This document shows, in pieces, positions 15,134 through 62,584 of a stretch of 62,584 bases of DNA. Source of the DNA: Verrucomicrobiota bacterium (GTDB lineage Bacteria > Verrucomicrobiota > Verrucomicrobiia > JADLBR01). A program made the translations under genes and the position numbers. Position 1 is the stretch's first letter. Each line of letters starts with the position of its first letter. The DNA is taken from NCBI GenBank assembly GCA_029560585.1, contig JAKQKQ010000126.1, positions 1 through 62,584 on the forward strand. The letters run 5' to 3'. The notes beneath the pieces were generated by a model that did not search any database, was not told where the DNA came from, and saw only the letters and a program-made list of their open reading frames with translations.

Positions 15134-16732
15134 ATGAGGAGAGCCCCCGTCACCCAGAAGGCCGCCTTGCGCGCATTCCCCGGAATGCTCGTCGCGGCGT
15201 TTTTCCTGCCGTGCGGCCACCACCGCGCCCACGCTGCCGAACCTTTTATGCCGTCGCGCGAGAACCCACCCGCCCTCGCGCGCGAATTCAGGGGCGCATG
15301 GGTCGCCACCGTGTACAACCTCGACTGGCCGTCGAGCGCGGGCCTGCCCACCAGCCGCCAGCAGTCCGAGCTGGTCAGACTCATGGATCGCGCCGCCGAC
15401 CTGAAACTCAACGCCATCATCTTCCAGGTGCGCCCGGGCTGCGACGCACTGTACAAGTCCAATCTGGAACCGTGGTCCCAGTGGCTGTCCGGCCGCATGG
15501 GCCGCGGTCCAGAACCCGAATACGACCCCCTGGAGATGGCCGTCCGGCTCGCGCACGAACGAGGCATCGAACTCCACGCCTGGTTCAACCCCTTCCGCGC
15601 CATGCCCAATCGCCAGCATCCCGCCTGTGCCACTCACGTCAGCCGTGCGCGGCCGGAATTCACCCGCCGCTACGGCCAATACCTCTGGCTTGACCCCGGC
15701 GACCCCCTGGTGCGCGATTACTCCTTGCGCGTCATCCTGGACGTGGTGCGCCGCTACGATATCGATGGCGTCCACCTCGATGACTATTTCTACCCCTACC
15801 CCGTCAAGGCCGGCAAAGGGGGCCAACTCCCATTCCCGGATGACGCCACGTGGGAAAAGTACCGCGCGCTCGGCGGCAAACTCGGCCGGAGCGAATGGCG
15901 CCGCGCCAGCGTCGACGAGTTTGTTCAGCGCCTCCAGGCCGACATCCGAAAGGCCAAACCATGGGTCAAATTTGGCATCAGCCCGTTCGGGATCTGGCGC
16001 CCCGGCTACCCTTCCTCCGTCCACGCAGACATTGACTCCTACGAGGACCTTGCCGCCGACTCTCGAAGATGGCTCGCGCAAGGCTGGGTCGACTACCTGT
16101 CGCCCCAACTCTATTGGAGCATCGATGCCCCAAAGCAGAGCTTCTCGGCCCTGCTCGACTGGTGGCTCGCTCAGAATCCCCAGAACCACCACGTCTGGCC
16201 GGGCGTGGCCTGCGACCGCATCGGCAAGTCGCGCCCGGCGTCTGAAATCATCCGCCAGATCTCCCTCGTGCGAAAGAAATCACCCCCCACCTCCATCGGC
16301 CATATCCAGTGGGACATCAAGCCCCTGCTCGAAGATCGCCGCGGCATCGCCGGCCTTCTCAAGGACCAGACGTTCGCGGATCGCGCGGTCATCCCCGCCA
16401 GTCCCTGGTTGGCCGGTTCCCAGCCCGGTACCCCGCGCCTCCAATCCTCTGAGGACGCTTCGGGCATCCGCCTCAAATGGACCCTCGACAAAGATCGCTC
16501 CTCCGCATGGCAGTGGGCCGTCCAATCTTGCCGCAATGGCCGGTGGGAAACCCGCGTCCACCCCTCCTTCACCGACACCGCCTTCTGGAAAAAAGGCTCC
16601 GCCCTCCCGGACGTCGTGGCAGTGACGGCCATCAATCGCTCCGGTCGCGCCGGCCCACCCGCCGTGGTGGAAAGAATCTCAGCACCCGTTACTTCCGCCA
16701 TGGCCACACCCAAGCTCAGGGCGATGCCTTGA
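15134..16732 (+). CDS. Exported glycoside-hydrolase-like protein (GHL10/DUF187)
   Basis: Secreted protein of 532 residues: signal peptide at 1-35, then a TIM-barrel GHL10 domain (about 45-350). Family hallmarks are EFRGAWVATVYNLDWPS at the barrel start, NAIIFQVRPGCDALY, and DIDGVHLDDYFYPYP carrying the acidic pair taken as catalytic in the family. The C-terminal ~110 residues look like a fibronectin-III-type or carbohydrate-binding module. GHL10 proteins are thought to act on peptidoglycan or other glycans. A repeat element lies directly downstream. Confidence 0.85.
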   Translation: MRRAPVTQKAALRAFPGMLVAAFFLPCGHHRAHAAEPFMPSRENPPALAREFRGAWVATVYNLDWPSSAGLPTSRQQSELVRLMDRAADLKLNAIIFQVRPGCDALYKSNLEPWSQWLSGRMGRGPEPEYDPLEMAVRLAHERGIELHAWFNPFRAMPNRQHPACATHVSRARPEFTRRYGQYLWLDPGDPLVRDYSLRVILDVVRRYDIDGVHLDDYFYPYPVKAGKGGQLPFPDDATWEKYRALGGKLGRSEWRRASVDEFVQRLQADIRKAKPWVKFGISPFGIWRPGYPSSVHADIDSYEDLAADSRRWLAQGWVDYLSPQLYWSIDAPKQSFSALLDWWLAQNPQNHHVWPGVACDRIGKSRPASEIIRQISLVRKKSPPTSIGHIQWDIKPLLEDRRGIAGLLKDQTFADRAVIPASPWLAGSQPGTPRLQSSEDASGIRLKWTLDKDRSSAWQWAVQSCRNGRWETRVHPSFTDTAFWKKGSALPDVVAVTAINRSGRAGPPAVVERISAPVTSAMATPKLRAMP

Positions 16733-16768
16733 CTCGCCACCTGCCCACCACATCAACTCCGCGGCCTA

Positions 16769-16993
16769 GCCTGCATATTTCACGCTTCCGCGTGAAATAT
16801 GCAGGCTTAAAGGAAAACCGCGCTCCGAAGAACGCGACTTTGAAGGGTCTGGGGCCATCGGTCCGCGAAACACACTCCGCAACCGCGAAAAGACCCAGTC
16901 TTTGCCTGACCTTTCCCAATAAATGGCTTTCGTGGCGCGGTTTTCCCAGAGCCCAGAATTTCACAGCCGGCAGGCTGTGAAATATCCGGGCTA
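16769..16993. repeat. Twin-hairpin dispersed element, copy 1
   Basis: The same element recurs at 62200-62426 in the same orientation. Its left end is a perfect 16-bp stem with a TTCC loop (16770-16805). Its right end is a second stem around TTTCACAGCC/GGCTGTGAAA (about 16958-16988), slightly imperfect in this copy. The outer ends also pair with each other (TAGCCTGCATATTTCAC against TAGCCCGGATATTTCAC reversed), as in a mobile element's terminal repeats. Between the copies the left stem changes ATATTT/AAATAT to ATGTTT/AAACAT, a compensated change. There is no T-run, so it is not a plain terminator. Confidence 0.75.
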
Positions 16994-16994
16994 G

Positions 16995-17678
16995 TCAGGC
17001 CGTCGCCCTTCGTTTCACGACCTGCTGCTCTTGCCTCGTCTTGACGACGCTCTTCTCCGGCAGCACGCCCCGCCACTGGCTCAGGGGATAAAGGATGCTG
17101 TCCCGTCCCAGGACCGACCCCGGATTGATGACGGAATTGCAGCCGATCTCCGTGCGATCGCCCACGATCGCCCCAAACTTCCTGAGGCCCGTTGGAAACT
17201 TACGCCCGTCGACCTCGACCACGATCTCGCTCCGGTCCAGTTTCACGTTGCCCAGGATCACGCCGGCCCCGAGATGCGCCTTGTGGCCCAGAATCGAGTC
17301 CCCCACGTAATTGAAGTGCGGCACCTCGCAGCCGTCGAACACGACCGCGTTCTTGAACTCACACGAGTTGCCCGCAACAACCCAGTCACCCAGAATCACG
17401 TTCTCCCGGATGTATGCGCCCGCGCGCACCTGGCAATTCCTCCCTATCCAGGCGGGCCCCTTGATCACCGCGCCGGGCTCCACGACGGTCCCATCCCCGA
17501 TGTACACCCGCTCGCCCACGAACGCGTGCCCCATCACCCGCCCACGATTCGCGGGTTCCAGATGCACCTGCAGATATGCACCCACCTTCTTCAGCGCGTC
17601 CCACACGAACTCAACCTCCTCAAACAGCTCGCGGTGCGCGGTCCGGGCCAGGTCGACGTACTCCTCAGGTCGAAACAT
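16995..17678 (-). CDS. Left-handed beta-helix acyltransferase-like protein
   Basis: A protein of about 227 residues made mostly of hexapeptide repeats typical of a left-handed parallel beta-helix (VYIGDGTVVEPGAVIKGPAW, then IGCNSVINPGSVLG near the end). It resembles the C-terminal part of GlmU/UDP-GlcNAc pyrophosphorylase-type acetyltransferases, but has no nucleotidyltransferase domain. Its N-terminal 45 residues (FRPEEYVDLARTAHRELFEE) form a helical cap. ATG 17678 is chosen because a TACGCT box lies 6 bases upstream and the family begins at this Met. Acyl donor and acceptor are unknown. Confidence 0.75.
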   Translation of the reverse strand: MFRPEEYVDLARTAHRELFEEVEFVWDALKKVGAYLQVHLEPANRGRVMGHAFVGERVYIGDGTVVEPGAVIKGPAWIGRNCQVRAGAYIRENVILGDWVVAGNSCEFKNAVVFDGCEVPHFNYVGDSILGHKAHLGAGVILGNVKLDRSEIVVEVDGRKFPTGLRKFGAIVGDRTEIGCNSVINPGSVLGRDSILYPLSQWRGVLPEKSVVKTRQEQQVVKRRATA

Positions 17679-17684
17679 GCCGGT

Positions 17685-17690
17685 AGCGTA
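17685..17690 (-). promoter_or_regulatory. -10-like box 6 bases before the beta-helix gene start
   Basis: On the minus strand TACGCT ends 6 bases before the ATG at 17678. The -35 region (TTCTTA) is poor. It is listed because the same spacing recurs at several unrelated starts. Confidence 0.3.
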
Positions 17691-17749
17691 ATGCAAAATC
17701 TGAAATTAAGAACACCGGATTCTCGCGCCCGATGCGACCGGCGAGCGCG

Positions 17750-57651: not shown

Positions 57652-58790
57652 AACTCGCCATCGTCGGACTCGGCAACATCGGGCGCATGCACGCCCAGAA
57701 CCTCCTCGCCGGCAAGGCCCCCGGAGTCGAACTCGCCGCAATCGTCGAAAGCCGCCCCATCCCACCCGGCGAATTCGACGTCGTCCCGCACTTCGGCAAG
57801 CTCGCCGCCCTGATCAAGGCCGACGTGGCCGACGCCGTCCTCGTCGCCACCCCGTCCTTCGATCACTTCCCCACCGCCATCGCGGCCCTGAAGGCTGGCC
57901 TCCACGCCCTCGTCGAAAAACCCATCGCCCTCCATGCCGCCGACGCCCGCATTCTCGAGTCGGCCGCCAAAAGGACGAAATGCAAAATCGCCGTCATGCT
58001 CAACCAGCGCCTCGATAACCGATACGAGCGCATCCGTGACATCGTGGTGTCCGGCAAACTCGGCCATGTCCGGCGCTTCTCCTGGGCCATGACCAACTGG
58101 TTCCGCCCCGATATCTATTTCACGTCCAGCCCCTGGCGCGGCACCTGGAAGGGCGAGGCCGGCGGCGCCCTCCTGAATCAGTGCATCCACAACCTCGATA
58201 TCCTCGCGTGGCTCTTCGGCATGCCCAAGCGCCTCCGCGCGTATTGCGCCATGGGCAAGTACCACAAGATCGAAGTCGAGGACGAGGTCAACGCCTGCAT
58301 GGAATTCCCCAACGGCATCAGCGGCTCGTTCGTCGGATCCACCGGCGAACACCCCGGCGTCAATCGCCTCGAGATCTTCGGCGACCGGGGAACCCTCCTG
58401 TTCAATAACGACGAACTCGTCATCACCACCCTGAAACAATCCCTCCAGGAGTATTCCGCCACGACCACGGACCCGTTCGGTACGCCGGAATTCGACCGGA
58501 TCCGCGAAACGCTCGCCCCCGCGCCCCCGCGCCACTCCGACATCATTCGCAACTTCGCGGACTATATCGCCACCGGCGCGCCCCCCATCGGCCCCGCCCG
58601 AGATGGCGCCCAATCCGTCGAACTCGCGAACGCCATGCTCTATTCCACGTGGACGAACCGCGACGTCACCTTCCCGCTCGACGCCGCCGCCTACAAGCGC
58701 GCCCTCATGCGCCGCATCGCCAAATCCCACCTCCGCAAACCCTCAGTCACCGTCGCCCCCGTCACCTCGATGGGCAAGTCGTTCAGGTAA
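57648..58790 (+). CDS. Cytosolic Gfo/Idh/MocA oxidoreductase
   Basis: NAD(P)-dependent oxidoreductase of 380 residues. N-terminal KLAIVGLGNIGRMHAQNL, EKPIALHAADA and the GWRGTWKGEAGGALLNQCIHNLDILAWLFG-type catalytic region (split here) are as expected. Coupled by ATGA to the ROK gene. Unlike the first MocA protein it has no export signal, so the two may act on the same compound in different compartments. Confidence 0.87.
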   Translation: MKLAIVGLGNIGRMHAQNLLAGKAPGVELAAIVESRPIPPGEFDVVPHFGKLAALIKADVADAVLVATPSFDHFPTAIAALKAGLHALVEKPIALHAADARILESAAKRTKCKIAVMLNQRLDNRYERIRDIVVSGKLGHVRRFSWAMTNWFRPDIYFTSSPWRGTWKGEAGGALLNQCIHNLDILAWLFGMPKRLRAYCAMGKYHKIEVEDEVNACMEFPNGISGSFVGSTGEHPGVNRLEIFGDRGTLLFNNDELVITTLKQSLQEYSATTTDPFGTPEFDRIRETLAPAPPRHSDIIRNFADYIATGAPPIGPARDGAQSVELANAMLYSTWTNRDVTFPLDAAAYKRALMRRIAKSHLRKPSVTVAPVTSMGKSFR

Positions 58791-59026
58791 TCCAGAGCCG
58801 ACGACCAGACCCGCATCCCCGCTTCCCTGCAGCCAATGCGGGCGGCTGGCGATTCGCCTTGGTCTCGGCGAGAGATCCCCGTGCCCAAACCCCCAATGCC
58901 AACGCGTCCGCACCTCGCAGCCCTTGCCCGCCATTCACCCGCCCTCGCCCATCGCTCGTCCCCCGGCGTTCCGCGCCCGTCGCTCACCAAGGCCAACTTC
59001 TCCTTTCCTTCCCTATTAGATCCACG

Positions 59027-59032
59027 TATGCT
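59027..59032 (+). promoter_or_regulatory. -10-like box for the PQQ-propeller lipoprotein gene
   Basis: TATGCT ends 6 bases before the ATG at 59039. The -35 region is weak. The 248-base gap upstream (58791-59038) shows no other feature. Confidence 0.35.
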
Positions 59033-59038
59033 TATCGC

Positions 59039-62000
59039 ATGTCCGCCCCACGCCCCGCGCGGCCTGTACGAGGGCACCCCCGGATCACCTCGCCCCGCCA
59101 TCCCCTGATATCGGTTCTGGTCGGATCGGCAGTCGCCCTGATGGGCTGCGCGCCGCCTTCGGCCAAGAGCCGGACTGAGGATCTCCCAGGGCAACGCGCC
59201 ACTTCCCCCGGCATCATCATCGTCATCGACGAAACCAACTGGGAGTCCGCCATCGACACCGCCCGCCACGGGAACGCGCTCGTGTACACACAGATCGCGG
59301 ATCCATCTGTCGCGGACCGCGCCCGCCCGGCAGCGGAGGCAGCCGGCCTCGATCCGTCCCGGATCCAAATCGACGTCGGCCCGTTGGACCAACTTCATTT
59401 GGCCGATGATGTCGCCGATGGCTTGATCATGCGCCAGTCCACGGCCACCCCAAGCGAACGCGAGATCCTCCGGGTCCTCCATCCCGGCGCCCTAGCCCTC
59501 GTGGGGAATAGGACGATCGTCAAACCGACTCCCGACGGCCTCGATGATTGGACGCACCCGTATCACGGCCCCGACAACAACCCCCTTTCCCGCGACCGCC
59601 TGGCCCGAGCCCCCTTTCTCACTCGGTTCATCGCCGAACCCCGCTATGCGCCAGCCCCCCAAGTGGCGCTCGCATCCGCCGGACGGGTCTTCCACGCGTT
59701 CGGTCATGTGGCGTGGCACGAGCGCGAAGAGCCCTTCCTCTCCACCCTGGCCGCCTTCAACGGCTGGAACGGGACCCTGCTCTGGAGACGTCCCCTCCCC
59801 AAGGGCATGATGGTTCACCGCAACACGTTCGTCGCCACGCCCGATTCGGTCTTTGTCGGCGACGAACCATCCTGCGTCCGAATCGATGCGGCCACGGGAC
59901 AAACCCGGGGCGAGATCCGTCCGCCGCCTGGCTCCGCCCCCGGCTCGTTCTGGAAGTGGATGGGCCTTGAGGGGGGCACACTGTTTGCCCTGATCGGCGA
60001 ATCCGAGCCCCGCGATGAAGAGCAGCGCTGGAAACGCACCGCCCACGGCTGGCCGTGGACCGCCATTTCCACAGGCTACAACACGCCGGAAAACGCCTGG
60101 GGATTCGGCGCCGACTTCTTCGCCTTCGACCCAGCCTCCGGCCGCGTCCGATGGCACTACCGCGAATCATCCCCGGCCGATGCCCGGGCCGTCTGCCTCG
60201 GTGACGGATGCATCTTCGCTTTCCGATTCGGGGAATTTCTCACCTCCATCGATACGAAAACGGGGAAGCCCCGCTGGCGAAAGACGCCCCAGAGCGATCC
60301 CGCGCTCTTCGCGACCATCGGCCAATCCCTGCCCCGCCAAGGCTGGCAGACGAATTGGCGCACGGCCGCCTATCTCAAGTGCGGGCATGGCGCGCTGTTC
60401 TTCGCGGGTCCCCAGCTCGGAAAACTCCTGGTCCTCTCCGCCGATGACGGCCGCGTCCTCTGGCAGGATGCCTACGACAACTTCCAACTGATCCTCCGCG
60501 ACGACGCCCTCTACGGTATCGGTGGCGGCAAATGGGGTGAGAACATCAGCCGCAAGTTCGATCCGCTGACAGGCAGGGTCCTCGCCGAGTTGCCGATAGG
60601 TCGCCGCGCTTGCACCCGGCCCACCGCCACCGAGCAGGATATCTTCTTCCGCGCCATGGGCGGCTCCGTCCGGTTAAACGACGCCATCGGAAGACCGCTC
60701 TGGATCTCTCCGATGCGACCCGAATGCCACAGCGGCGTGATCATCGCGGGCGGCAGCCTCTACTGGTCGCCCTATGCCTGCGATTGTCAGCTCACCCTTA
60801 ACGGTTTCGTCGGCCTCGCGCCCGCCAAGGACTTCGATTTCACCCCCAGCCAGATCACCCCCGACCGCCTCGTCATCGGCCCCGGCGGCACGACACCTTC
60901 CTCCGAAACAGAAGCCCCCTCCTCGGACTGGCCCACGTTCCGTGCCAACACGAGCGCCACCTGCGCCAGCCTCGCCACGATCCCAAATGATGTGGCGCCA
61001 CTCTGGCAGACCCGCCTCCACGCCGCCGCCAAGACCCCGCCCACCGCCCCGACGGTCGCCCTCGGCATGGCCTACCTCGCCGATGGCCATGGTTGTGCCC
61101 ACGCCATCGACCTCGCCACCGGCAAGGAGCGATGGCGCTTCCGCACCGGAGGCGAAATCCGCATCCCGCCCACGATCTGGAATGGCCGCGCCCTCTTCGG
61201 TTCCGCCGACGGGTGGGCCTACTGCTGCGATGCGGCCACCGGACGGCTCCTCTGGCAGTTCCGCGCCGCCCCCATCGAACGCAAGATCCCAGTCTTCGGC
61301 CGCCTGCTATCCACTTGGCCCGCCTCCAGCGGCATCCTCGTGGACACCAAAGGCACCGCCTTCGTCGCCGCCGGAATCGTCAATTATGACGGCACCTACA
61401 TCTACGCCCTCGATGCCGCCACCGGTGCCCTCAAATGGAAGAACGACACCTCCGGTCACCTCGACACCGAAGCCCGCACCGGCGCCAGCGCCCAAGGACA
61501 TATGCTCCTCCACGCAGATCGCCTGTACCTCGCCGGCGGCAATGCCATCTCCCCCGCCATCTACAGCACCGCCGATGGTCACTGCCTCAATGATCCCGCC
61601 CCCCTCGCCCGCTGCGAGTCCACGAGCCCCCGAGGATGGGAACTCTACCTCGTCGGAAATCGCGTCATCGCCGCCGGTAAACCCTTCTACGCACACCCCG
61701 ACATCCCCGTCTACGACGTCACGGTCACCAAAAGAATCCTCCATGCCACCAACGGACAGCGCGACATCGCCTGGACCGACGGACAGAAACTCGCCTGCTT
61801 CCCACCCCTCTCTCCCTCGGCTCTCAATCTCGCCCCCACCGATGAGAAAAAGGGCCAACACATCATCCAACCCTGGGGCGCGTTTCAGCCAAACCTGCCC
61901 CCGGTCTGGACGTTAACCTGTTCAAACTCCGTCTCAGTAGCCCTCGCCCAAAACGCCGCCCTGATCGCCTACCCCGACTCCCTCGTCGCCCTCCGCCTGA

Positions 62001-62128
62001 CCGACGGTTCCAACCTCTGGACACAGCCACTCCCCGCCCCGCCCGTCCCATGGGGGCTCGCCCTCGGATCCGCCGGCCAGTGCCTCCTCTCCCTCACCAA
62101 CGGCGCCCTCGTCTGCTTCGGACATTGA
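59039..62128 (+). CDS. Lipoprotein with methyltransferase-like remnant and PQQ-type beta-propeller
   Basis: Exported lipoprotein of 1,029 residues. The signal ends in a lipobox LMGC. Residues about 60-175 resemble a class-I SAM-methyltransferase fold (NALVYTQIADPSVADRARPA, EILRVLHPGALALVG) but the glycine-rich SAM loop is lost, so it is probably a binding remnant. Residues 175-1020 form BamB/PQQ-like propellers with repeated Trp-strands (GRVRWHYRESS, GKPRWRKTP, GALKWKNDTSG). ATG 59039 is chosen for the lipobox; the frame runs further upstream antisense. Found in many PVC-type genomes, function unknown. It follows the MocA/ROK/MocA group. Confidence 0.75.
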   Translation: MSAPRPARPVRGHPRITSPRHPLISVLVGSAVALMGCAPPSAKSRTEDLPGQRATSPGIIIVIDETNWESAIDTARHGNALVYTQIADPSVADRARPAAEAAGLDPSRIQIDVGPLDQLHLADDVADGLIMRQSTATPSEREILRVLHPGALALVGNRTIVKPTPDGLDDWTHPYHGPDNNPLSRDRLARAPFLTRFIAEPRYAPAPQVALASAGRVFHAFGHVAWHEREEPFLSTLAAFNGWNGTLLWRRPLPKGMMVHRNTFVATPDSVFVGDEPSCVRIDAATGQTRGEIRPPPGSAPGSFWKWMGLEGGTLFALIGESEPRDEEQRWKRTAHGWPWTAISTGYNTPENAWGFGADFFAFDPASGRVRWHYRESSPADARAVCLGDGCIFAFRFGEFLTSIDTKTGKPRWRKTPQSDPALFATIGQSLPRQGWQTNWRTAAYLKCGHGALFFAGPQLGKLLVLSADDGRVLWQDAYDNFQLILRDDALYGIGGGKWGENISRKFDPLTGRVLAELPIGRRACTRPTATEQDIFFRAMGGSVRLNDAIGRPLWISPMRPECHSGVIIAGGSLYWSPYACDCQLTLNGFVGLAPAKDFDFTPSQITPDRLVIGPGGTTPSSETEAPSSDWPTFRANTSATCASLATIPNDVAPLWQTRLHAAAKTPPTAPTVALGMAYLADGHGCAHAIDLATGKERWRFRTGGEIRIPPTIWNGRALFGSADGWAYCCDAATGRLLWQFRAAPIERKIPVFGRLLSTWPASSGILVDTKGTAFVAAGIVNYDGTYIYALDAATGALKWKNDTSGHLDTEARTGASAQGHMLLHADRLYLAGGNAISPAIYSTADGHCLNDPAPLARCESTSPRGWELYLVGNRVIAAGKPFYAHPDIPVYDVTVTKRILHATNGQRDIAWTDGQKLACFPPLSPSALNLAPTDEKKGQHIIQPWGAFQPNLPPVWTLTCSNSVSVALAQNAALIAYPDSLVALRLTDGSNLWTQPLPAPPVPWGLALGSAGQCLLSLTNGALVCFGH

Positions 62129-62148
62129 TCCGACTCGAAAACGGGGAG

Positions 62149-62168
62149 GGACGCCGGCCCCGGCGTCC
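62149..62168. repeat. GC-rich intergenic hairpin, family copy B
   Basis: Identical to 2035-2054: 9-bp stem, 2-base loop. The flanking GGGAGGG is shared. Confidence 0.7.
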
Positions 62169-62199
62169 GCGTCCCACCGGATCCGCGGTTCCTGGGCTA

Positions 62200-62426
62200 A
62201 CCTGCATGTTTCACGCTTCCGCGTGAAACATGCAGGCTCAAAGGAAAACCGCGCTCCGAAAGACGCGATTTTCGAGGGTCTGGTGCCACCGATCCGCGAA
62301 ACACACTCTCCAACCGCGAAAAATCCCAGTCTTTGCCAGACCTTTCCCAATAAATGGCTCTCATGGCGCGGTTTTCCCAGAGCCCGGATATTTCACAGCC
62401 CGCAAGGCTGTGAAATATCCGCGCTA
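62200..62426. repeat. Twin-hairpin dispersed element, copy 2
   Basis: The left stem (62201-62236) and the right stem around CGGATATTTCACAGCC are both perfect 16-bp pairings. The core is collinear with 16769-16993 for about 190 bases with scattered substitutions and no indels; near the right stem it is two bases longer. Confidence 0.75.
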
Positions 62427-62446
62427 ACCCAGCCCACGAGGCGAGG

Positions 62447-62584
62447 CTGTCTCAAAACTCAAACGCCCAACACGGAACACCCAACAATCAATGCCCATCT
62501 GATGATAGAGGGGACTTCCAATGGTGTGCGGCGCGCGACAATGCACGGCATCTCACAGAGATGCCCTACAAAATTTGTAGGCCG
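62447..62584. repeat. Right arm of the 138-bp inverted repeat, MITE-like, cut by the window end
   Basis: Reverse complement of 2146-2283 with about 8 differences and no gaps. It starts with CTGTCTCAAAAC, the same terminal motif as the left element. The element probably continues past base 62584. Confidence 0.75.

Follow-up and report, generated by a model that had tools for sequence, protein, structure and literature searches.

A 221-bp repeat with palindromic ends in a Verrucomicrobiota genome is very probably a MITE moved by an IS1380-family transposase

A repeat of ~221 bp with palindromic ends, found twice in the window (the whole stretch of DNA analysed, 62,584 nt from a Verrucomicrobiota bacterium), is very probably a MITE moved in trans by an IS1380-family transposase, a DDE enzyme (PF13701) with distant kinship to piggyBac. 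The probability of this reading, which rests on sequence comparison, is roughly nine in ten. It draws on the shared ends, the matched YTAR duplications, the high copy number and complete IS1380 elements of other genomes in which both ends and duplications recur. The repeat is best read as mobile DNA rather than as a dedicated structural RNA.

The earlier note described a twin-hairpin repeat with perfect 16-bp left stems, identical TTCC loops and mutually inverted outer ends. Both copies are present with all these traits, and the two stem bases that differ between them constitute one compensated pair, A–T in copy 1 and G–C in copy 2. Once refined, the exact bounds are 16770–16990 and 62201–62423, with 4-bp direct repeats at the flanks (CTAG for copy 1, CTAA for copy 2). 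Three parts make up the fold: one hairpin at each end, left and right, and a long-range stem in which the two halves of a 12–13-bp subterminal inverted motif pair (GGAAAACCGCGC / GCGCGGTTTTCC). The folds of copy 1 (RNA folding, z = -10.0) and copy 2 (DNA folding, z = -11.0) lie far beyond chance, and arm matches in the window number 8 against 0.43 expected. The halves of the element are inverted copies over ~56 bp from each end inward, running through TIR, loop, inverted TIR, CTC and then GGAAAACCGCGC. The features are as follows.

16766..16769, no strand: left target-site repeat CTAG of copy 1, a matched 4-bp direct repeat
16770..16990, plus strand: MITE copy 1, 221 bp (bounds set by direct repeats and TIRs; 40 copies scored across the genome)
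16770..16783, plus strand: left TIR of copy 1, CCTGCATATTTCAC, common to IS1380-family ends
16770..16805, plus strand: left palindrome of copy 1, 16-bp stem and TTCC loop, CCTGCATATTTCACGC-TTCC-GCGTGAAATATGCAGG (sequence, pairing counts, fold)
16812..16823, plus strand: subterminal motif GGAAAACCGCGC of copy 1, pairing with 16935–16946 (~1% non-consensus in 51 copies; fold)
16935..16946, minus strand: inverted subterminal motif GCGCGGTTTTCC of copy 1 (conservation across copies)
16952..16990, minus strand: right palindrome of copy 1, with a one-base bulge and an inner arm one base short (bulge common to 36/44 copies)
16977..16990, minus strand: right TIR of copy 1, CCCGGATATTTCAC in minus-strand reading (arm matches; same ends in the elements L300, L271 and L246)
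16991..16994, no strand: right target-site repeat CTAG of copy 1, a matched direct repeat
62197..62200, no strand: left target-site repeat CTAA of copy 2, a matched direct repeat
62201..62423, plus strand: MITE copy 2, 223 bp (direct repeats, TIRs, fold)
62201..62236, plus strand: left palindrome of copy 2, CCTGCATGTTTCACGC-TTCC-GCGTGAAACATGCAGG, with G–C at pair 8 (pairing counts)
62243..62254, plus strand: subterminal motif GGAAAACCGCGC of copy 2 (sequence, fold)
62367..62378, minus strand: inverted subterminal motif of copy 2 (sequence, fold)
62383..62423, minus strand: right palindrome of copy 2, lacking the one-base bulge seen in most copies (sequence, fold)
62424..62427, no strand: right target-site repeat CTAA of copy 2, a matched direct repeat

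Copy 1 has convergent genes on both sides, with their 3' ends towards it, one GHL10 glycosyl-hydrolase-like (15134–16732, plus strand) and the other for a hexapeptide-transferase (16995–17696, minus strand), whose stop codon is abutted by the right target repeat. Copy 2 starts 72 bp past the end of a long ORF (58649–62128). Short palindromes of another kind occur near elements, in the window at 62146–62170 and 62540–62584 and elsewhere at loci L062, L074 and L076 (e.g. GACGCCGGCCCCGGCGTC and GCATCTCACAGAGATGC). Some of these recur at other loci, which suggests further palindromic repeat families in the genome.

The source genome (7.06 Mb, 336 contigs) contains many dispersed copies with distinct flanks. 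Genome-wide, 40 near-full-length copies with 91–100% identity were scored from 221 first-look candidates, and the mean pairwise identity of 51 full copies is 91.7%. The arm pattern TAGCCYGSATRTTTCAC occurs at 420 sites, versus 1 for the reversed control; as estimated from arm sites, copies probably occupy >100 places. Full copies are accompanied by truncated copies and solo hairpins. Copies measure 221–223 bp, are bounded by imperfect inverted repeats CCYGSATATTTCAC and contain no ORF capable of encoding a transposase. The earlier note had named broken pairing in other copies and conservation limited to two copies as outcomes that would count against its view: pairing is broken in other copies, and conservation is far wider than two. 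At L116:4627–4851 (contig C98 of the source genome), an element end adjoins a block that it also adjoins, in synteny, in the sister species of the same genus (genome G001, C160:70–133), so some insertions may predate the split of the two species; the solo hairpin at L116:2523 is absent there. As a separate observation, another dispersed repeat family, at L116:4058–4367, matches ~10 or more sites in the sister genome with 81–93% identity.

The flanks carry the signature of the mover. Of the 45 full copies, 39 have YTAR 4-bp flanks that match as direct repeats, where shuffling gives 25.0 on average (sd 2.1), and the matched pairs are CTAG/CTAG (30), TTAG/TTAG (6) and CTAA/CTAA (3) in contig orientation. 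Among the full copies of the source genome with non-self-complementary tags, nine matches are direct and none is inverted. The match is not merely inherited within subfamilies, because the close copies L018 (TTAG/TTAG) and L023 (CTAG/CTAG) differ in their matched tags. Matched 4-bp direct repeats are a signature of DDE transposases and not of Y1/HUH transposition. The matched YTAR flanks are the target-site duplication of a DDE transposon. Searches with joined flanks gave mostly spurious GC-rich ORFs and yielded no exact empty site; one solo hairpin is missing at the syntenic spot of the sister genome, where poor alignment of the spacer prevents an exact empty site from being defined.

The ends point to the IS1380 family. 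A scan of viral contigs with the arm alone led to a 1589-bp element (L246) encoding a 436-aa protein with PF13701 (E=2.8e-158), the IS1380-family transposase domain, and to an 861-bp deletion derivative of its family (L249, TTAG/TTAG, PF13701 E=9.4e-71). RefSeq labels the plasmid homologues IS1380. The ends of L246 itself are flanked by CTAA and TTAG, with no direct repeat. A search with the L246 protein retrieved complete IS1380 elements that share these ends and are flanked by CTAG/CTAG duplications: ISPosp7 from Polaromonas sp. JS666 plasmid 2 (L299, 1613 bp), an element of Acidovorax temperans plasmid pEP1 with perfect 14-bp TIRs (L300, 1627 bp) and a 1570-bp IS1380 in a genome of the same class (L271). 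CTAG/CTAG flanks are also carried by L302 and L303, and further IS1380 elements have related ends. The sister genome contains decayed IS1380 pieces, one of them with a similar end (TAATCCGGACATTTCAT). Homology between MITE and IS is limited to ~14–16 bp of the TIR. IS1380 and piggyBac elements are reported to have 4-bp target-site duplications and 5'-CC..GG-3' termini in common (PMC10045372).

No close IS1380 transposase was matched in the source genome at E <= 1e-20, so the autonomous parent has presumably been lost or is unassembled. PF13701 matches are likewise absent from several other repeat-bearing genomes. The only IS1380 of the source genome is distant (L129, contig C4:4829–6019), seemingly interrupts another gene and does not show the TIR, which discards it as partner. 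Its left junction may read CCTTAG followed by CCAATCTGG, again YTAR then CC. Other candidate partners were set aside: six loci of other transposase families found via PF01609 have no matching ends, IS701 is absent from a PF13546 search, and candidate long arm pairs in other genomes (L207 and L208) proved to be separate MITEs or hairpins.

In the proposed mechanism, the transposase would recognize the terminal CCYGSATATTTCAC repeats, the element would be cut out as double-stranded DNA, and insertion would occur into a YTAR tetranucleotide that is thereby duplicated. From the shared ends and duplications, we infer that an IS1380 transposase moved the present copies, its putative recognition sites being the palindromes at the ends and the 12-bp subterminal motif. 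The palindromes may present two TIRs per end, and the subterminal motif is a candidate second binding site. In piggyBac elements, which target TTAA, internal inverted repeats lie beside the TIR.

Palindromes also stand alone. A palindrome scan of the genome collection detected YTAR-flanked solos in MAGs labelled Verrucomicrobiota, Omnitrophota, Kiritimatiellota and Gammaproteobacteria, and the arm was present in 10/10 further genomes searched, at 5 to 197 sites each with controls at zero. These palindromes of 31–46 bp, from several phyla, have the same ends and flanks as the full element. YTAR flanks are matched in 11 of 23 solos of other genomes (shuffle mean 4.3), and the source-genome solos L075 and L076 both show CTAG/CTAG. 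Since flanks match above chance, solos are either minimal mobile units or remnants with both outer ends. Three hybrid solos (L064, L076 and L319) combine one left-type arm with one right-type arm, which is the arrangement that an internal deletion between the two ends of a full element should leave. A tentative proposal, more doubtful than probable, is that the palindromic end is a complete mobile unit of its own. Two TIRs set end to end would make up its 31–46 bp, IS1380 transposases would carry it into YTAR sites, with duplication of the target, in several bacterial phyla, and two such units would have given rise to the 221-bp element. If true, the solo palindrome would be among the smallest transposable elements known. 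The alternative that the solo is the primary mobile unit, the 221-bp element being two solos around host DNA, draws on the same matched flanks in both sets of genomes. It is unlikely: inside the full element the hairpins are bordered by CTC, not YTAR, the inverted similarity runs inward through the subterminal motif and points to an inverted end duplication, and the hybrids L076 and L319 resemble internal deletions.

The compensated stem pair was taken in the earlier note as strong evidence for a selected fold. This evidence turns out to be weak, while the palindromic ends themselves are constrained. Among 70 left hairpins of the source genome, one of 16 pairs covaries, namely pair 8 (A–T 34, G–C 18, A·C 17, G·T 1), in counts that do not represent independent events because copies inherit their hairpins; at least one mismatch occurs in 34 of the 70. 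One covarying pair with a common mismatched intermediate (A·C, 17/70) is weak evidence for selection on pairing, and the change can equally be explained by copying from a few source elements or by arm-to-arm correction. Since the A·C intermediate is a G·T wobble on the opposite strand, tolerance of that step is possible. Paired variation is also seen outside the source genome. Relatives in genome G134 show a compensated change of their subterminal stem, GCAAAACCG / CGGTTTTGC instead of GGAAAACCG / CGGTTTTCC, and in other genomes the stem beyond the TIR varies in sequence and is often still paired (AAGT/ACTT, CAG/CTG, GC/GC). This variation beyond the TIR fits repeated formation of palindromes from IS ends, for instance through snap-back copying, no less than it fits selection for pairing.

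Constraint on the ends is clearer. Non-consensus bases amount to ~1% in both subterminal motifs, 0.4–1.0% in the left arms without pair 8 and 2–3% in the right arms, as against 7.6% in the middle. The contrasts with the middle (p = 1e-11 for the ends, p = 4e-8 for the subterminal motifs) are upper limits because copies were found partly via their ends; the arm patterns did not select directly for the right-hand motif or for the inner arms. The palindromic ends are therefore constrained, the left hairpin arms and the subterminal stem being far more conserved than the middle. A higher conservation of outer than of inner arms was considered and dropped, as the difference is gone once the covarying pair is set aside (p = 0.48). 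Most right palindromes have an inner arm that is one base short (36 of the 44 examined). The best reason found for the constraint is that these are the ends of a transposable element, with TIRs common to IS1380-family IS and a matched YTAR duplication.

The strong fold, the conserved arms and subterminal stem, and the position of copy 1 between convergent 3' ends could also reflect domestication, in which the host would use the element as a bidirectional terminator, an RNA stability element or a nucleoid-protein site and selection would keep its fold at each locus. This is improbable given that about half of the left hairpins are mismatched, often by A·C at pair 8, that no Rfam match reaches the gathering score in the window and that only transposition accounts for the target duplications and the IS1380 ends. 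A secondary host use at some loci is possible. Least credible of all is a REPIN-like element moved as folded single-stranded DNA by a RAYT (Y1 HUH transposase), with the TAG beside the hairpins as REP tag: its two inverted hairpins, terminal TAG, bulged stem, hundreds of arm sites and solos resemble GTAG-tagged REPs (PMC3733652) and the source genome has six Y1 genes, but the hairpin adjoins none of 27 Y1 loci (6 in the source genome, 21 in three relatives), the ends are those of IS1380, and the reading is largely refuted by the flanking words, which match as direct repeats (9 against 0 inverted) and change from copy to copy, as would not be expected of an element-borne tag. In genome G045, Y1_Tnp domains (PF01797) at L090, L093, L096 and L099 lie inside open frames of 1227–1514 aa, unlike ordinary RAYTs or IS200 transposases.

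With movement in trans by an IS1380 transposase as the preferred reading, a REP-like palindromic family gains a concrete candidate mover, a DDE transposase of the IS1380/piggyBac type and not a RAYT. As the same arm occurs in MAGs of four labelled groups, some repeats elsewhere taken for REPs may have an IS1380 origin. Moreover, terminal repeats can give a repeat a 'compensated stem' as a side effect, a point relevant to scans of repeats for structured RNAs. In the literature searched, with partial coverage, no published IS1380-derived MITE with these ends was found, nor were the arm sequences; papers covering IS1380 and MITEs together describe other MITEs.

Four known systems bear comparison. 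IS1380 IS such as ISPosp7 have the same terminal repeats of the CCYGSATATTTCAC form and a CTAG direct repeat at both ends; they differ by a length of ~1.6 kb, a transposase gene and non-palindromic ends, whereas the MITE is gene-less and its similarity to them stops past the TIR. REPINs and GTAG-tagged REPs with their RAYTs (PMC3116915, PMC3733652) have in common the inverted hairpin pair, a terminal TAG, a bulged stem, hundreds of copies and solos; the present family departs from them by matched direct-repeat target duplications, a DDE-type partner and no RAYT association. The piggyBac elements of eukaryotes share a 4-bp TA-centred duplication, 5'-CC..GG-3' termini and distant transposase kinship (PMC10045372), but their ends are not palindromic. 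Finally, type II prokaryotic MITEs (PMC10969869), for example Chunjie and QMITE, are likewise <500 bp, with TIRs, direct repeats, many copies, homology to the parent IS in the TIRs only, stable stem-loops and REP-like truncated copies. Relative to these, each end of the present element is a palindrome of two TIRs, accompanied by a conserved subterminal inverted motif.
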